Virus record (IMG/VR): IMGVR_UViG_3300046167_000369
Location: 1 to 57,312 of that record
Length of the DNA stretch: 57,312 nt
Strand: one strand, 5' to 3'
DNA from: a virus
Positions 8,663 to 18,084 of this stretch are shown piece by piece (position 1 is the first letter of the stretch; each line of letters opens with the position of its first letter). The notes under the pieces were generated by a model. It searched no databases. It had not been told where the DNA came from and saw nothing but the letters and a program-made list of their open reading frames with translations. The position numbers and the translations under genes were made by a program.

Positions 8663-9094
8663 AAAATATATTTAGACACATATAGTATTTGGGTTCTATA
8701 GCATTTTACGCAAAGCCGCCCAAAACTAAAACCGATTTTTTTCTTGGGGGTGGGGTTCCAATCCCAATGGCCGCATCCCGATTTTTTTGGCTTTTTGTAT
8801 ACCAGGGTATCTACTACGGTCTCTCCAGGGTAATGATGTTTTCCTGGAGCGCGTCCTGCGCTCCCTATGTCCCCTGTTCACGCATCCCGTTATACCTGTT
8901 GCCCCATCTCCCGACCGCATTGCTACGGATATACAAAGCAAATGCATTGTAAAAGGCACAGAGAGATGCCCTTAATCCCCCCCCGAAATGAAATAAACGC
9001 AAATGATTTGCGGTAATTAGAAAAAAAAGTTTCGCTCTGAAACCCAGGCTGGGCAAGGGATTGAGAAGATGTTGAATTTTTTTTTAGACAAAAA
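8663..9094. other. G/C-rich gene-free control region between divergent units
   Basis: About 430 bp without a credible gene; the open frames here lack plausible starts and composition. It is richer in G/C than the AT-rich leaders around it. It contains a hairpin GGAGCGC-GTCCT-GCGCTCC at 8846-8864, a perfect inverted repeat CGCAAAT-G-ATTTGCG at 8998-9012, CCCAG-G-CTGGG at 9043-9053 and a run of eight C near 8977-8984. Candidates are an operator and leader region, a non-coding RNA or a replication origin. I cannot choose among them from sequence alone. Confidence 0.55.
8998..9012. promoter_or_regulatory. Perfect inverted repeat, candidate operator
   Basis: CGCAAAT G ATTTGCG has 7-bp arms around one base, about 85 bp upstream of the early promoter at 9095-9126. 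Its size and symmetry fit a dimeric helix-turn-helix protein such as the winged-helix protein at 5899-6327. The pairing is speculative. Confidence 0.4.
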
Positions 9095-9126
9095 TTGTAC
9101 AGAAGTCAAAAAGATTACTAACTTTG
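9095..9126 (+). promoter_or_regulatory. Bacteroidota-type early promoter
   Basis: TTG at 9095-9097, a 21-nt spacer and TAACTTTG at 9119-9126 match the -33/-7 pattern of Bacteroidota. It faces the plus-strand early arm and lies 62 nt before the first gene at 9189. Confidence 0.7.
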
Positions 9127-9188: not shown

Positions 9189-9368
9189 ATGAAAAAAGAA
9201 ACAACACAAAACACTGAGAATCAAGCAGTTAGCGGAATGGATAAACTAATAGCATTTAGTGATTACCTTGAGAAAATAGGATACAGTCTTGAAGGGATTA
9301 GCTTTCAAAATGCCGTGTCACTACGGATAGATGTTGAAAAGGTAATATCAGAAAAACTAACAAAATAA
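9189..9368 (+). CDS. Hypothetical 59-aa protein, first gene of the early arm
   Basis: MKKETTQNTENQAVSGMDKL, then IAFSDYLEKIGYSLEGISFQ, and an end SEKLTK. Mostly helical, no Cys, no membrane segment. It is the first gene after the strong early promoter and is followed by hairpin copy 1. Its last codons and the following 17 nt are nearly the same as those at the end of the 79-aa gene at 10186-10425, so its 3' end belongs to a duplicated segment. Function unknown. Confidence 0.65.
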   Translation: MKKETTQNTENQAVSGMDKLIAFSDYLEKIGYSLEGISFQNAVSLRIDVEKVISEKLTK

Positions 9369-9486
9369 GTATAAACAAGGGGAGCGCAATGCTCCCCATA
9401 AAAACAATAACTATGAACACAAACGAAAAAATTCACAAAGCATTTAATAACAGAGAAACAATTGAAGTTGAAAACATTTTTAAACC
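9355..9486. repeat. Direct repeat, copy A (gene 3' end, hairpin, leader, 25 codons)
   Basis: About 130 bp that match 10412-10540 at roughly 80 percent by eye. The match covers the last codons of one gene (AAACTAACAAA), hairpin GGGGAGCGCAATGCTCCCC, an A-rich leader and the first 25 codons of the next gene (MNTNEKIHKAFNNRET and EVENIFKP). Confidence 0.75.
9379..9397 (+). repeat. Cassette hairpin, copy 1 of 5
   Basis: GGGGAGCGCAATGCTCCCC, a 7-bp stem with a GCAAT loop, preceded by AAACAA and followed by an A-rich leader. All five copies are identical over 19 nt. No T-run follows, so it is not a plain intrinsic terminator. It could protect or process mRNA ends, or hide the ATG that lies in its loop. 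Confidence 0.85.
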
Positions 9487-9799
9487 AAACACAATGAAAC
9501 AATCAATCAAGGAAGAACTACTATCGCACATTGAAGACTGCAAGAACGATTTTGAACAAGTAAGTCATTTCAATATGTTCAACGAGGACTATTACCTAAT
9601 CGGTTATAATAATTGCAACGAATGGTTAAAGAAACACGATATAGGTGTGTTTGAAGGTGTAAACATTTGCAAAGATTTTGAACGTGATAACTACGGAGAA
9701 GTTCAAACGGATTTCGATAACTCTGAAAAATTAGTAAACAATTTGGTCTATTGGTATGGATTAGAATTGTGTAACGAATTAGGAATTGAATTAGATTAA
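9413..9799 (+). CDS. Hypothetical acidic protein with a shared N-terminal module
   Basis: 128 aa from ATG 9413. An in-frame ATG at 9389 lies inside the hairpin and is not used in the other cassettes, so I reject it. Residues 1-25 (MNTNEKIHKAFNNRETIEVE...) match the start of the Gp88-like gene at 10470. They are followed by a second start-like context (AAACCAAACACA then ATG at 9494), identical in style to the cassette leaders. The rest (MKQSIKEELLSHIEDCKNDF onward) may therefore be a separate gene fused to the module. The C-terminus is acidic (YWYGLELCNELGIELD). Function unknown. Confidence 0.65.
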   Translation: MNTNEKIHKAFNNRETIEVENIFKPNTMKQSIKEELLSHIEDCKNDFEQVSHFNMFNEDYYLIGYNNCNEWLKKHDIGVFEGVNICKDFERDNYGEVQTDFDNSEKLVNNLVYWYGLELCNELGIELD

Positions 9800-9807
9800 T
9801 TAAACAA

Positions 9808-9826
9808 GGGGAGCGCAATGCTCCCC
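9808..9826 (+). repeat. Cassette hairpin, copy 2 of 5
   Basis: Identical 19-nt hairpin between the genes ending 9799 and starting 9843. The leader CACAAAACCAAATAACT follows directly. Confidence 0.85.
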
Positions 9827-9842
9827 ACAAAACCAAATAACT

Positions 9843-10136
9843 ATGAAGTACGCAAGAAAATGTGACATAACAAATGAGCCAATGAATGAGGGTTACTGCA
9901 TTCAAGATGGTGTAATGTATATTAAATACGAAGATGATTTCATAAAGCATTTAAGAGACGTTGAGAAGGAAGACAACTCCGAATATGATAAAGATGTTTC
10001 AGAGGGTAGATTAACCGATGACTGCTTAATAAATGATTACTATGAAGCTGACTATTACTATTGGACAGAATGGGAAGATGAATCAGAATACCAATACGAA
10101 ATTATAAATGGTACACTAACTTTAATAGAAGATTAA
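9843..10136 (+). CDS. Acidic hypothetical protein with CDITNEPMNEGYC motif
   Basis: 97 aa. MKYARKCDITNEPMNEGYCI opens with a C-D-x-T-x4-M-N-x-G-Y-C pattern. ADYYYWTEWEDESEYQYE near residues 68-86 is very acidic and aromatic. I recall proteins with KC..T...MNEGY and DYYYWTEW in Bacteroidota and their phages, without known function. The low pI could mean DNA mimicry or protein binding; that is inference. It is the second hairpin-bounded cassette. Confidence 0.7.
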   Translation: MKYARKCDITNEPMNEGYCIQDGVMYIKYEDDFIKHLRDVEKEDNSEYDKDVSEGRLTDDCLINDYYEADYYYWTEWEDESEYQYEIINGTLTLIED

Positions 10137-10144
10137 ATTAACAA

Positions 10145-10163
10145 GGGGAGCGCAATGCTCCCC
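10145..10163 (+). repeat. Cassette hairpin, copy 3 of 5
   Basis: Identical 19-nt hairpin, 8 nt after the stop at 10136, followed by ATTTAAACCAAACACA and the ATG at 10186. Confidence 0.85.
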
Positions 10164-10185
10164 ATTTAAACCAAACACAATAACG

Positions 10186-10425
10186 ATGAACCAGGAAACG
10201 ATAAACTACTACACAGACGAATTGAAGAGATTCAAAAACGTATCAAGCAAGAAAGCATTTCTAACGAGAAGCAAGAAGGAGGTACAAGAGTACATTAAAG
10301 ACTTGAACTGGGCATTGGATGGTCGTGGATGGCTCTACGGGGAGCGAGTACACCAGGGTCTGGTATGGGAGCAAGAAGATGAGTTAAGACTAATAGAAAA
10401 GCTATATAATAAACTAACAAAGTAA
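10186..10425 (+). CDS. Hypothetical 79-aa protein
   Basis: MNQETINYYTDELKRFKNVS, then a basic helix (RSKKEVQEYIKDLNWALDG) and a C-terminal coil ending LIEKLYNKLTK. No Cys and no membrane segment. The stop region is nearly the same as that of the 59-aa gene at 9189-9368. Third hairpin-bounded cassette; function not recognised. Confidence 0.65.
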   Translation: MNQETINYYTDELKRFKNVSSKKAFLTRSKKEVQEYIKDLNWALDGRGWLYGERVHQGLVWEQEDELRLIEKLYNKLTK

Positions 10426-10540
10426 ATATTAACAAGGGGAGCGCAATGCTCCCCACAAAACCAAACACAATGAACACTAACGAAAAGATCTACAAAGCAT
10501 TCAACAGCAGAGAAACGGTTGAAGTTGAAAACATCTATAA
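10412..10540. repeat. Direct repeat, copy B
   Basis: Second copy of the segment at 9355-9486: AAACTAACAAAGTAA, hairpin, leader, and 25 codons of MNTNEKIYKAFNSRET and EVENIYKP. It joins a different upstream gene end to a different downstream protein. Confidence 0.75.
10436..10454 (+). repeat. Cassette hairpin, copy 4 of 5
   Basis: Identical 19-nt hairpin followed by CACAAAACCAAACACA and the ATG at 10470. Confidence 0.85.
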
Positions 10541-11246
10541 ACCATACAAGGAACAAAAGACGTTATTGAGCAAAGGCAATACGAATGCCAAAACTAGCAA
10601 GAATGCAGTTGAGACATACATTTTGTACTTATCGCCGTATACGCAAAATAGCAAGAATATAAACGTTTGCCCCAAAGCAAGTAAAGGATGTGCTGCAGCT
10701 TGTTTGTTCACAGCTGGAAGAGGAAGAATGTCAAACGTTCAAAGTTCAAGAATGAACAAAACTGAGTATTACCTACACGACAAAAGTAAGTTTATCAATC
10801 AACTTGCTAAGGAGATAAAGAAAGCCATTCTGAAAGCTACTGTAAAAGGTAATGACATTGCATTCCGTTTGAACGGTACAAGTGACATTGACTTCATTTA
10901 CCTGCTAAAGAAGTATGCTGATTTCGATGCATTGAATACACCAAATAACGTACATTTCTATGACTATACTGCTATCTTAGGCAAGGCAAGAAAATACAAA
11001 GGTACAAAGTATGCCGTTACATTAAGTAGAAAGGAAGATAACCAAAGTGAGATTGATACGGCAATTGCTGAAGGTATAAATGTCTCTGTAGTATTCGCAA
11101 ATGAATTACCTGCGGAGTACAATGGCGCAAAGGTATTGGATGGCGATATGGCTGATGATTTGATGCTGACCAACAAAGGAATAGTATTGGGATTGAAGGC
11201 GAAAGGAGACGCAAAGAAAGACGAAACCGGATTCGTAGTAAGATAA
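10470..11246 (+). CDS. Gp88-like phage protein
   Basis: 258 aa from ATG 10470; the in-frame ATG at 10446 lies within hairpin 4 and is rejected. After the 25-residue shared module, the sequence LLSKGNTNAKTSKNAVETYI, then CPKASKGCAAACLFTAGRGR and YYLHDKSKFINQLAKEI, fits the phage Gp88 family (PF17338). That family has a CP.AS.GC...C motif that may bind metal, then FRLNGTSDIDF and VTLSRKEDN blocks. Its biochemical role is unknown to me. It is the fourth hairpin cassette and the largest, and its N-terminus appears to have been swapped in by the direct repeat. Confidence 0.8.
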   Translation: MNTNEKIYKAFNSRETVEVENIYKPYKEQKTLLSKGNTNAKTSKNAVETYILYLSPYTQNSKNINVCPKASKGCAAACLFTAGRGRMSNVQSSRMNKTEYYLHDKSKFINQLAKEIKKAILKATVKGNDIAFRLNGTSDIDFIYLLKKYADFDALNTPNNVHFYDYTAILGKARKYKGTKYAVTLSRKEDNQSEIDTAIAEGINVSVVFANELPAEYNGAKVLDGDMADDLMLTNKGIVLGLKAKGDAKKDETGFVVR

Positions 11247-11256
11247 TTATTAACAA

Positions 11257-11275
11257 GGGGAGCGCAATGCTCCCC
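11257..11275 (+). repeat. Cassette hairpin, copy 5 of 5
   Basis: Identical 19-nt hairpin, 10 nt after the stop at 11246, followed by CACAAAACCAAATAAGTT and the ATG at 11293. It is the last copy; the following genes are joined by short gaps or overlaps. Confidence 0.85.
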
Positions 11276-11292
11276 ACAAAACCAAATAAGTT

Positions 11293-11502
11293 ATGTATAC
11301 AAGAAACAACAATCAAAATGTTTATAGCATTTTTGTTAACGGAGAGTTTATAAATGGATCAGACAATTATTCATTTGCTATGAACAGAGCGCTAGGTATT
11401 GCTCTTCTTAAAGGATTAGAATTTACGAATACCAAATCAAAACTAATAATCGATAAATGGATTGGTGATGGAGAGACAGTAATAGTAACTAAAAACAAAT
11501 AA
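11293..11502 (+). CDS. Hypothetical 69-aa protein
   Basis: MYTRNNNQNVYSIFVNGEFI, then FAMNRALGIALLKGLEFTN and a C-terminal beta strand ending VIVTKNK. No known motif. It is separated by 3 nt from the next gene, which also starts MYT, so the pair probably share a transcript beginning at hairpin 5. Confidence 0.65.
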   Translation: MYTRNNNQNVYSIFVNGEFINGSDNYSFAMNRALGIALLKGLEFTNTKSKLIIDKWIGDGETVIVTKNK

Positions 11503-12643: not shown

Positions 12644-12955
12644 ATGACAATTTACATTTTATTTAACCCAACAGGAACAATAGTAAGATCAACAAGTTCG
12701 TTGGACGATGCAACAATTTGGAAGGCAACAAGAGGAACTTATATGGAGGTATACCACTGCAATTCCAGGGACCTGGGGACATACAAATCTGATGATGAAG
12801 TATGGATAGGCAATGGATTCGGTGAAGAACTTTACTCAGTTGATACGGATGGAAAGATTGATGGAGTAGATATCGATTCGATTAACCTAACGAAAGACTT
12901 TCACAACGAAGTTTTACAGGCAAAAAAAATGGAGGGAAACCACGCCCTCCATTAA
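12644..12955 (+). CDS. Hypothetical 103-aa protein
   Basis: MTIYILFNPTGTIVRSTSSL, then DDATIWKATRGTYMEVYHCN and a Gly/Asp-rich centre. No recognised domain. Its last codons (KKMEGNHALH) lie in the hairpin at 12929-12952, so the hairpin is part of the coding end. Confidence 0.6.
   Translation: MTIYILFNPTGTIVRSTSSLDDATIWKATRGTYMEVYHCNSRDLGTYKSDDEVWIGNGFGEELYSVDTDGKIDGVDIDSINLTKDFHNEVLQAKKMEGNHALH
12922..12952 (-). terminator. Terminator-like hairpin pointing against the local genes
   Basis: ATGGAGGG (12929-12936) and CCCTCCAT (12945-12952) form an 8-bp stem with an 8-nt loop. The T-run needed for termination is found only on the minus strand (A-run at 12922-12929), while all genes nearby are on the plus strand. 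It may stop antisense transcripts, or simply mark the 3' end of the mRNA. Confidence 0.5.
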
Positions 12956-14317: not shown

Positions 14318-14635
14318 ATGATAAAGATAACCAAAGACAATTTCGTATGGCTTGACGTAACTAAGCAGTGCGTATCACAGGTAAAGACCAAAGAATTATT
14401 TGATGCACAGGTATTGTATGAAGTATTTGACGATGATAGTGAGAGTTTGATTGAAGACCCTGTACTCGTTAAGTATGCGATACAGAGAGGATCAAGAATA
14501 TGCATCGAGGTAGGTGAACTACCAAAGAAATACCAACCTAAGGAAGTTTGGGATGGAACGGACAAGGAGTTAATAGACGGACATTGGTTCGTAAAGATGG
14601 CAAACATTTTAAACATAAAAAATGAAGACAATTAA
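14318..14635 (+). CDS. Hypothetical 105-aa protein
   Basis: MIKITKDNFVWLDVTKQCVS, then LFDAQVLYEVFDDDSESLIE and EVWDGTDKELIDGHWFVKMA. Alpha/beta, acidic; no family recognised. It overlaps the pentapeptide-repeat gene by 14 nt, so the two are probably translated together. Confidence 0.65.
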   Translation: MIKITKDNFVWLDVTKQCVSQVKTKELFDAQVLYEVFDDDSESLIEDPVLVKYAIQRGSRICIEVGELPKKYQPKEVWDGTDKELIDGHWFVKMANILNIKNEDN

Positions 14636-15497
14636 AATTAAAGATAGAGAAGACAAGGTATTATTCACCCATACTTGTGACAACAACACTATCACAATAA
14701 CATTGGAGAAAGCAGTAAGTGAGGGTGCTGATTTAACAAATGCTAATTTAGAATGTGCTGATTTAGAAGGTGCTTATTTAAGAGATGCTAATTTAGAAGG
14801 TGCTGATTTAAGAGGTGCTGATTTAACAAATGCTAATTTAGAAGGTTCTTATTTAAGAAAAGCTGATTTAAGAAAAGCTGATTTAAGAGGTGCTGATTTA
14901 ACATATGCTGATTTAGAACGTGCTAATTTAACAGGTGCTGATTTATACGGTACTTATTTAAGATATGCTAATTTAGAATGTGCTGATTTAACAGATGCTG
15001 ATTTAAGAGAAGCTAATTTAACAGGTGCTAATTTAAGAGATGTTTGGTTAAGAGAAGCTAATTTAAGATATGCTGATTTAACAGGTGCTTGGTTAAAAAA
15101 TGCTGACTTAATAGATGCTCATTTAAGATATGCTAATTTAACAGATGCTGATTTAACAAATGCTAATTTAACAGGTGCTGATTTAACAGGTGCTAATTTA
15201 ACAGGTGCTGATTTAACAAATGCTGATTTAGAAGATGTTATAAATAACCCATTAAAAAAAGATCCACAAGACAAGGTAGTAACTAAAGTTATAAACTCAT
15301 TTAGAGAACGCTCAGAGCAGGGAATAAATAAATATGGTACAACCCTACAGAGAGATGACTTGAGTCCATTAGAATGGATGCAACACCTACAGGAGGAGTT
15401 GATGGATGCAACACTATACATTGAGGTATTAAAAAGTAAACTAATAAAGTTAGAAATTAAAGAAGCTGAAGACAAGGTGTCTGACGTATGTGATTAA
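14622..15497 (+). CDS. Pentapeptide-repeat protein fused to a MazG-like C-terminal domain
   Basis: 291 aa. After about 30 residues (including TLEKAVSEG), roughly 34 tandem pentapeptides of the form A-D/N-L-x-x run to about residue 205, forming a right-handed beta-helix like those of Qnr and MfpA. The C-terminal part (SFRERSEQGINKYGTTLQRD, then LSPLEWMQHLQEELMDATLY) carries an EELMDA motif like all-alpha NTP pyrophosphohydrolases of the MazG/dUTPase superfamily, widespread in phages. The repeat may mimic DNA and bind gyrase, while the C-terminus may hydrolyse a nucleotide; both are inference. It overlaps the gene before it. Confidence 0.85.
   Translation: MKTIKIKDREDKVLFTHTCDNNTITITLEKAVSEGADLTNANLECADLEGAYLRDANLEGADLRGADLTNANLEGSYLRKADLRKADLRGADLTYADLERANLTGADLYGTYLRYANLECADLTDADLREANLTGANLRDVWLREANLRYADLTGAWLKNADLIDAHLRYANLTDADLTNANLTGADLTGANLTGADLTNADLEDVINNPLKKDPQDKVVTKVINSFRERSEQGINKYGTTLQRDDLSPLEWMQHLQEELMDATLYIEVLKSKLIKLEIKEAEDKVSDVCD
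14724..15236 (+). repeat. Tandem 15-nt repeat coding for pentapeptides
   Basis: About 34 units of the type GCTGATTTAACAGGT, each giving A-D-L-T-G or a variant. Base use in the units is highly uniform (GCT, GAT/AAT, TTA), which suggests recent expansion or unit exchange by slippage. Confidence 0.85.
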
Positions 15498-16322: not shown

Positions 16323-16749
16323 CATAGAAGAGGTGTTCGATCAAGCAAGTAACGATAACTACGCTATATCTATGACAGGCTACAACTCTGAGTCTCATAT
16401 GGTATATGGCATAAAGATAATGAAGGACACATCCAACAACGAGATAAGGCTACTTGACACTATGAGACGTGGGGATCATTTTATTCCACTGACGAAAAAA
16501 GAAGTAGAAATATTCTTAGAAAATGGTTGGAGATATGGTGTGTATGTATTATCTTTGGACAATTATCGTACAAAGCTTGACAAGATAGAACAAAGAATAC
16601 AGAAGTGTATAGCCGAAAAGAAATCATCAAAACAAATATCAATACAAAAATCAAGTAGAGAAAGGATACTAAAGAAGTATTCAGAAATTAATCTTAAATT
16701 AAATCAATTAAATTATGGCAACAACAAAGAAAAAGCAGACAACATTTGA
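16312..16749 (+). CDS. Hypothetical 145-aa protein
   Basis: Start chosen at ATG 16312 (MAYSIEEVFDQASNDNYAIS), which overlaps the DnaA-like gene by 11 nt; a longer frame begins at 16270 but is less likely. The N-terminal half has beta strands (MVYGIKIMKDTSNNEIRLLD) and the C-terminal half is a long coiled coil (DKIEQRIQKCIAEKKSSKQ onward). It overlaps the annealing-protein gene by 35 nt. Function unknown, possibly a recombination accessory. Confidence 0.65.
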   Translation: MAYSIEEVFDQASNDNYAISMTGYNSESHMVYGIKIMKDTSNNEIRLLDTMRRGDHFIPLTKKEVEIFLENGWRYGVYVLSLDNYRTKLDKIEQRIQKCIAEKKSSKQISIQKSSRERILKKYSEINLKLNQLNYGNNKEKADNI

Positions 16750-17350
16750 AAAGCTATCTGCTATCAACGTAAACAAATTCATCGAGAAGAAGAACGGATT
16801 GACATACCTGTCGTGGGCTTGGGCTTGGAGTGAGACAAAGAAGAACTGTCCAGACGCTACATACCAAGTGGGTGAGACAGAGTACGATGAGGCTACAGGC
16901 TTTATGTGTCACACAAGTGTAACTATAGATGGCGAGACATTGGAGATGTGGCTACCTGTTATGGACGGCAAGAACCAAGCGATGAAGAAAGAACCTTACA
17001 CGTACACCACACGCTACGGACAGAAGGAAGTGGCGGCAGCCACATCATTCGACATCAACAAGACACTTATGAGATGCTTGGTTAAGAACCTTGCGATGTT
17101 TGGTTTAGGTATCTACATCTATGCAGGAGAAGATATGCCTGCAACAACTACTGAAGAGGTTGCATCTGCACCTGCAAAGAAAGCTACAGGTGGTACTGAA
17201 CTAAAGGTAGGAGATCCTAAGTGGGAATCAATGGCTAAGTTCTGTAAGGAGAACAAGGCGTTGGGATACAAGAAGCTATGTGATAAGATTGAAGCCAAGT
17301 ACAAACTATCAGAGGGTGCTAAGGAAGAGATTAAAAAGATAATCAAGTAG
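16715..17350 (+). CDS. Single-strand annealing protein, Sak3/DUF1071 type
   Basis: 211 aa. FEKLSAINVNKFIEKKNGLT, then YLSWAWAWSETKKNCPDATY and SFDINKTLMRCLVKNLAMFG-LGIYIYAG match DUF1071, the Sak3 group of phage annealing proteins. These pair complementary single strands during recombination-dependent replication. An Ala/Thr linker (near 145-165) is followed by a basic C-terminal helical part. It stands 2 nt before a PD-(D/E)XK exonuclease gene and near an SSB-like gene, the usual trio. Confidence 0.88.
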   Translation: MATTKKKQTTFEKLSAINVNKFIEKKNGLTYLSWAWAWSETKKNCPDATYQVGETEYDEATGFMCHTSVTIDGETLEMWLPVMDGKNQAMKKEPYTYTTRYGQKEVAAATSFDINKTLMRCLVKNLAMFGLGIYIYAGEDMPATTTEEVASAPAKKATGGTELKVGDPKWESMAKFCKENKALGYKKLCDKIEAKYKLSEGAKEEIKKIIK

Positions 17351-17352
17351 CT

Positions 17353-18084
17353 ATGGAAATCACTCCCGAAAATATAGAGAAGCTAAGGGATGATGAGCAG
17401 TACTACGGTGATTTTGGTAGACAGTTTCTGTCAAACTCAGACATAGGGAAACTACTCAACGACCCGACACAGTTTCGTCAACCACAGGCTGACAACATAA
17501 ACTTCCACAAGGGTAGGTACTTCCATCAGCTAATACTGGAGCCTGAGAAGGCTGAAGAGACAGAGTTCATTGATGTGTCTTCACGCAACACGAAGGCATA
17601 CAGAGAGCAGGCAACAAGAGGTATCATTATGCTTCAGAAGGAAGGTCAGCAGATTAGAGATTGTGTAAGTGCAATGATGAGTAAGCTACCATTCTTCGAG
17701 GGTATACGCCAAGAGGGGAATGAATATGAAGTACCTGCTATCAAGGAGATAAAGGGTATGCTATGGAAGGGCAAGGCTGATATCGTTTGTTCAGATAAGT
17801 TGATTGACTTGAAGACAACGAGTAACATAGATGACTTCAAGTGGTCGGCAAGGAAGTACAACTACGACAGCCAGTGCTACATATACCAAGAGTTATTTGG
17901 TAAGCCATTGGTATTCTACACAGTAGACAAGACTGATATGAGACTTGGAATCTTTACACCAACAGAAGAATTTGTTCAGAGGGGTGAGGAGAAAGTGATC
18001 AGAGCAGTCAACGTTTACAAGAAGTTCTTTGGAGATAACGCTGAGTTCGATATCAACGAATACTTTATAGAGGACAATCTATAA
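17353..18084 (+). CDS. PD-(D/E)XK exonuclease (RecE/DUF3799-like)
   Basis: 243 aa. GRYFHQLILEPEKAEETEFI is the N-terminal helix-strand with the GxxxH/E element. GMLWKGKADIVCSDKLIDLK carries the catalytic D-x(n)-D-x-K pattern (KADIV...LIDLKT), and NYDSQCYIYQELFG is the Y-x-x-Q motif of the lambda-exonuclease and RecB nuclease family. It should resect DNA ends to give single strands for the Sak3 protein encoded directly upstream. The 243-aa length fits a single nuclease domain. Confidence 0.88.
   Translation: MEITPENIEKLRDDEQYYGDFGRQFLSNSDIGKLLNDPTQFRQPQADNINFHKGRYFHQLILEPEKAEETEFIDVSSRNTKAYREQATRGIIMLQKEGQQIRDCVSAMMSKLPFFEGIRQEGNEYEVPAIKEIKGMLWKGKADIVCSDKLIDLKTTSNIDDFKWSARKYNYDSQCYIYQELFGKPLVFYTVDKTDMRLGIFTPTEEFVQRGEEKVIRAVNVYKKFFGDNAEFDINEYFIEDNL

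Follow-up and report, generated by a model that had tools for sequence, protein, structure and literature searches.

Stoperators of Cluster A mycobacteriophages are multiple identical short DNA sites which are used in transcription regulation. They are mentioned, along with the SAS and ESAS repeats of Cluster K, in PMC3203893. The SAS is a 13-bp GGGATAGGAGCCC-like repeat having a Shine-Dalgarno core 3–7 nt from the start, and the ESAS arms are imperfect 17-bp inverted repeats which do not support RNA pairing (PMC3203893). A different precedent is given by papA, where a structured 5′ stem-loop can protect the downstream gene (PMC5927463). For initiation itself, A residues at −3, −6, −12 and −13 promote the process in F. 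johnsoniae, where there is little structure between −20 and +20 and bS1 is positioned to contact −12 to −15 (PMC6847099). Here we surveyed and analyzed a row of five repeated hairpins in a viral DNA stretch of 57,312 bases (the whole of this stretch is called the window) along with hairpins of the same kind in other phages.

Repeat array and gene row

The 19-mer GGGGAGCGCAATGCTCCCC is present in five exact + strand copies, at 9379, 9808, 10145, 10436 and 11257 of the whole 57,312-base record. The first-pass annotation had reported five exact copies, each between genes, and this was upheld: all five hairpins are intergenic, within 2 kb, between consecutive early genes; no further site was found in the whole record at up to 3 mismatches (shuffles expect 0), and the same arms with any loop of 3–10 nt gave only the five copies. 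AACAA lies directly 5′ of the hairpin in 5/5 copies, in line with the conservation claimed for it. The A-rich CCAAA leader reported after the repeat is found directly 3′ of the hairpin in 4/5 copies and fails at copy 1, which has ATAAAAACAATAAC there. The total identity of the hairpin against drifting flanks was confirmed, as the five copies have a mean pairwise identity of 1.00 over the hairpin itself, 0.91 over the 7 nt 5′ of it, 0.75 over the 11 nt 3′ of it and 0.32 / 0.38 in flanking sequence farther away. The statement that the hairpin is not an ordinary terminator also stands: no copy (0/5) has a T-run on its 3′ side, and the 3′ flank is A/C-rich in all five.

The hairpin has a 7-bp perfect stem and an asymmetric five-base centre. 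Its loop is GCAAU, i.e. GCAA plus one extra base, which is a variant and not itself a GNRA tetraloop. It gives −13.6 kcal/mol when folded alone and folding z-scores of −3.0 to −5.2 in context; no Rfam match above the gathering threshold was found within the window. By the gene and hairpin coordinates, each hairpin begins 8–10 nt after the upstream stop and ends 15, 16, 22, 15 and 17 nt before ATG for copies 1–5. A uORF or leader peptide beginning at the ATG in the loop was considered and rejected, since it is in frame at only 2/5 copies and other hairpins are without it.

The whole gene row is on the + strand and is preceded by a putative promoter (9095–9126) matching the consensus Bacteroidetes pattern TTG-N21-TAACTTTG. 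The first gene, g0 (9189–9368, 59 aa), has no hairpin in front. Thereafter come copy 1 (9379–9397) with g1 (9413–9799, 128 aa, phrog_10208), copy 2 (9808–9826) with g2 (9843–10136, 97 aa), copy 3 (10145–10163), the spacing exception, with g3 (10186–10425, 79 aa), copy 4 (10436–10454) with g4 (10470–11246, 258 aa, GP88 family, PF17338, E = 2.6e-34), and copy 5 (11257–11275) with g5 (11293–11502, 69 aa).

The genes between the hairpins had been called unrelated to each other, which holds only in part. The genes g1 and g4 have a 27-aa N-terminal prefix in common, and a 138-nt duplication, 86% identical (family D10; copy A at 9354–9491 and copy B at 10411–10548, both on the + strand), takes in the tail of the upstream gene, the hairpin, the leader and about 27 codons of g1 and g4. 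The identical copies of the window probably arose by recent duplication of such hairpin-bearing segments; in L060, L076, L101 and G013 two non-identical hairpins are present per genome. L091 encodes a protein with 80% identity to the body of g1; this protein starts at an inner methionine of g1 and has neither the 27-aa prefix nor a hairpin directly in front. Homologues of g4 in L052 and L075 are 60% identical and have no hairpin directly in front, although in each of these two contigs a different gene does have such a hairpin before it. The phage primase matches Flavobacterium, Nonlabens, Polaribacter, Cellulophaga, Maribacter and Bacteroides phages, from which a Bacteroidetes host is inferred; no near relative at the DNA level was found in the phage collection.

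Some other features of the window were also recorded. A GC-rich and apparently gene-poor region (8690–9060) lies just before the early promoter and has its own hairpin at 8846–8864. Just downstream of the array, a WYL_2 / Sm-like fold protein (PF10902, 12300–12587) is a candidate RNA-binding partner, and genes of a Sak-type annealing protein and an exonuclease are found at 16715–18084. A hairpin of the form TGGAGGG...CCCTCCA (12929–12955) overlaps the stop codon of the ORF 12644–12955. In the ORF 14622–15497 a 15-nt unit recurs about 29 times with overlap, which would suit a pentapeptide-repeat protein, and the long ORF 49–1695 has repeats with a 9-nt period (GGTCC/GGACC-rich on the reverse strand), which would suit a collagen-like protein.

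Distribution of the element in phage genomes

The wider element, here named class R, was defined as AACAA, hairpin, A-rich leader and ATG, with the hairpin 14–18 nt before the ORF start. Viral sequences were scanned with the pattern AACAA-GGGG...CCCC-ANNAAA, the loop and inner stem being left free; 75 IMG/VR stretches match it, many having flanks like those of the window and a different hairpin. When the pattern scans and the window were pooled, an ORF start was located 14–18 nt downstream in 30/44 distinct AACAA-hairpins from phage contigs, 23 of these at 15 or 16 nt. As one of the two viral scans demanded an ATG 7–36 nt downstream, the count within that range is 30/37. Matches of the same pattern in cellular genomes are chance hits and were used only as a control, and among the matches listed 0/15 had a start at 14–18 nt (p = 2e-6 against the phage 30/44).

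Four-base loops of the distinct start-linked hairpins are GNRA in 8/12 and UUCG in 2/12; GNRA loops are also common in AACAA-hairpins without a called start at 14–18 nt. It has been argued that UUCG stabilises RNA and not particularly DNA (PMC2864571). The window leader ACAAAACCAAA was found again with other hairpins in other contigs. The exact 19-mer was tried as a marker of the element and was abandoned, since its 40 contigs are mostly terminators or chance contexts and only L037 has the leader of the window. Some class R phages show a single hairpin only. In the cultured Bacteroides phage Versailles, four hairpins lie 15–18 nt before annotated starts, among 57 examined. The window itself has AACAA at 5/5 copies and the 14–18 nt spacing at 4/5, one copy being at 22 nt. 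By comparison, the window hairpins match an element that recurs among phages: its stem may have any sequence, base pairing and a stable four-base loop (GNRA, in some cases UUCG) persist, and the start codon follows at about 15–17 nt.

A promoter-linked operator was rejected because a promoter −7 box is near in only 5/67 cases. A general feature of host DNA was rejected as well: in Flavobacteriaceae and related genomes only 1 hairpin at 14–18 nt was found among 724 genes, and no AACAA-type hairpin was found in 716 kb of host DNA. A row of small genes with an L062-like GGGGGAGCAATCCCC hairpin is also present in the Hafnia phage Zyzzx (L541, 45734–48775), an enterobacterial myovirus, where this hairpin is farther from the start and stands among AGAGGA-type leaders.

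Pairing and position relative to the start codon

The strongest case for pairing comes from a gene of 81 aa that has close relatives in L396–L408, whose leaders carry a 12-bp stem. All cells of these stems are paired (108/108), 27 of them as G-U (25%); seven of the 12 pairs vary, one change being on both sides, and the loops are GAAA, GCAA and GUGA. As the substitutions are mainly on one side and yield G-U, shuffling gives a modest control of the covariation (40 of 500 shuffles). The pairing argument is carried by the slid-structure control and by the antisense energy, the leaders folding at −20.2 kcal/mol in sense and −7.9 kcal/mol in antisense. More distant homologues of the 81-aa gene are without the hairpin.

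When hairpins no more than 60 nt from a start were collected from the window together with 80 relatives, their distances showed a peak at 14–18 nt (28 against 9.2 expected); these statistics mix class R with the class D palindromes described below, and the class R counts (30/44 vs 0/15) give a cleaner test. Measured from the upstream stop, the distance to the hairpin ranges from −10 to 50 nt in the same set, the position thus tracking the start codon and not the stop. The kept pairing, the far less stable antisense strand and the start spacing together lead us to the view that the element works in the sense mRNA and is anchored to the start codon. This anatomy alone, at the RNA level and anchored to the start, we hold to be probable.

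The frequency of A in the leaders peaks at −11 to −13 and at −5 to −7; the set was chosen for A/C-rich leaders, the peak positions not being selected. These peaks agree with the initiation determinants of F. johnsoniae (PMC6847099), and the hairpin therefore ends where the start site begins. When the hairpin was deleted or shuffled in silico, the opening energy of the start site shifted little and in both directions. The hairpin is therefore not needed to keep the leader open, and the idea that it holds the start region unpaired was dropped.

Proposed mechanism and alternative explanations

In our main reading, the mRNA of a single early operon would fold into a stem-loop at each of the five repeats, just 5′ of a non-Shine-Dalgarno start site. 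A stem-loop of any sequence would border the initiating 30S subunit on its upstream side, adjoining the A-rich −12/−13 segment. The AU-rich spacer 5′ of it, if cut, may leave a structured 5′ end shielding the downstream cistron in a manner analogous to papA; cut or not, the stem-loop would bound the start site, and each small gene may thus be expressed independently. Bacteroidetes and E. coli have different RNA decay enzymes, and the papA parallel hence stays an analogy. The whole reading, i.e. stem-loops of an operon mRNA which bound non-Shine-Dalgarno starts, shield the downstream cistron papA-like and were copied by recent duplication, is given a probability of about 0.5. The little-changed opening energy on in silico removal of the hairpin, the GCAAU loop variant, the 22 nt of copy 3, the class R phages with a single hairpin, the GNRA loops of hairpins without a called start at 14–18 nt and the modest shuffle control are points against it. 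Among the guesses of the first-pass annotation, an RNA-processing or stability element appears to fit best, given the sense-strand pairing, the stable tetraloops and the fixed start spacing of the wider set.

A bolder version may also be put forward, tentatively and with more doubt than belief: a new class of translation-initiation element, used by phages whose hosts ignore Shine-Dalgarno sequences, in which a sequence-free, stable-looped stem-loop at 15–17 nt would replace the Shine-Dalgarno helix as the upstream mark for positioning the 30S subunit. With its free sequence, conserved structure and fixed distance, the element offers a direct handle on how Bacteroidetes choose starts without Shine-Dalgarno pairing. 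It may be of use for building expression constructs in Bacteroidetes of the gut and the environment, and as a marker of the real starts of tiny phage genes.

Several relatives carry dispersed, genome-specific palindromes in 5–14 copies, here called class D (L356, which is MW202828.1 40000–60850, L239, L242, L257, L264, L286, L304 and L314). Examples are GTGTCGTTAACGACAC with 14 copies in MW202828, about half of them inside genes, GTGTC-N6-GACAC with 11–12 copies in L239, L257 and L304, and GGGGGAC-N4-GTCCCCC with 11 copies in L286 and others. About half of the copies lie inside genes in several genomes, and some occupy a homologous position within the gene of the Sak-type annealing protein, about 170–200 nt before its end. 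Before one gene compared between L256 and L258, the two leaders are alike and the hairpins wholly different. Class D is likely a DNA-binding-site system whose sequence differs from phage to phage. That these palindromes are the same element as the window hairpin was rejected, about half of the MW202828 copies being inside genes.

One might argue that the window repeats are the window's own version of class D, and for this reason a DNA-level dyad is kept as an alternative, although an unlikely one. It would make the repeats lineage-specific, stoperator- or operator-like sites for a phage DNA-binding protein, intergenic merely for room; the intergenic and intragenic palindromes of the relatives and the identity of all five copies speak for it. 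However, no window copy (0/5) is in coding sequence, the copies are not dispersed over the genome, they all point the same way around a five-base centre that is asymmetric, and none of the palindromes of the relatives occurs in the window. The window flanks match those of class R phages, whose hairpins retain G-U pairs in the stem and GNRA/UUCG loops.

The main rival at the RNA level is an operator, in which a phage- or host-encoded RNA-binding protein recognises the exact hairpin and co-regulates the five genes. That all 19 bases, loop included, are identical despite diverging flanks speaks for it, as does the WYL_2 / Sm-like gene just downstream of the array. Duplication, however, explains part of this identity, and the hairpins that other phages carry at this position have no common sequence and can differ even within one genome, which leaves the operator unlikely.

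The 19-mer and its leader may otherwise be recombination joints, short homologies for swapping early genes with the help of the Sak-type annealing protein and the exonuclease encoded by the phage. The 138-nt duplication does span the hairpin, and the homologues of g1 and g4 are mosaic. Yet homology needs neither a fixed ATG spacing nor the sequence-free stems of other phages, and many genomes have a single hairpin; as an explanation this is improbable. The cassette system suggested earlier is hence not borne out as a purpose, since the element is start-anchored in phages with single or dissimilar hairpins; the proposed check of the same genes in other phages also went against it, the g1 and g4 homologues having no hairpin directly in front. 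Shuffling at the repeats may occur as a consequence, because the array grew by a duplication that takes in the hairpin, and cassette swapping is plausibly a secondary side effect. A weak intrinsic terminator or transcriptional pause hairpin is very improbable: the stem is GC-rich and the same 19-mer is followed by T-runs in other phages, but the bases following each window copy are of the A/C-rich kind, and the fixed ATG spacing would be left unexplained.

Comparison with known systems

No description of this element was found in open-access PMC full text. The nearest description is that of SAS/ESAS in Cluster K mycobacteriophages (PMC3203893), which are likewise short repeats just upstream of some non-structural phage genes, in one orientation, and include inverted repeats whose sequence differs between subclusters. 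Unlike SAS, the window leader (ACAAAACCAAA...) has no AGGAG and the hairpin ends 15–22 nt before ATG; unlike ESAS, the window stem is perfect over its 7 bp, and pairing is conserved in related leaders. The window element is not filed under SAS/ESAS because it lacks these defining features. With Cluster A stoperators it shares several identical short sites in one phage genome; these are DNA sites, and the class D palindromes of the relatives resemble them more than the window hairpins do. It differs from an intrinsic terminator in the missing T-run of all five copies. As in the papA 5′ stem-loop and the intercistronic hairpins of E. coli (PMC5927463), the window hairpins stand between cistrons, close before the downstream gene and without a U-tract. 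The E. coli cases, however, are individual ones with no fixed start-codon distance reported (PMC5927463), whereas here there are many copies with small stems, in hosts which do not use Shine-Dalgarno pairing, and cleavage would be a prediction. The element is real and unusual, and is best filed among intercistronic or 5′-leader mRNA stem-loops, with a possible link to non-Shine-Dalgarno initiation.
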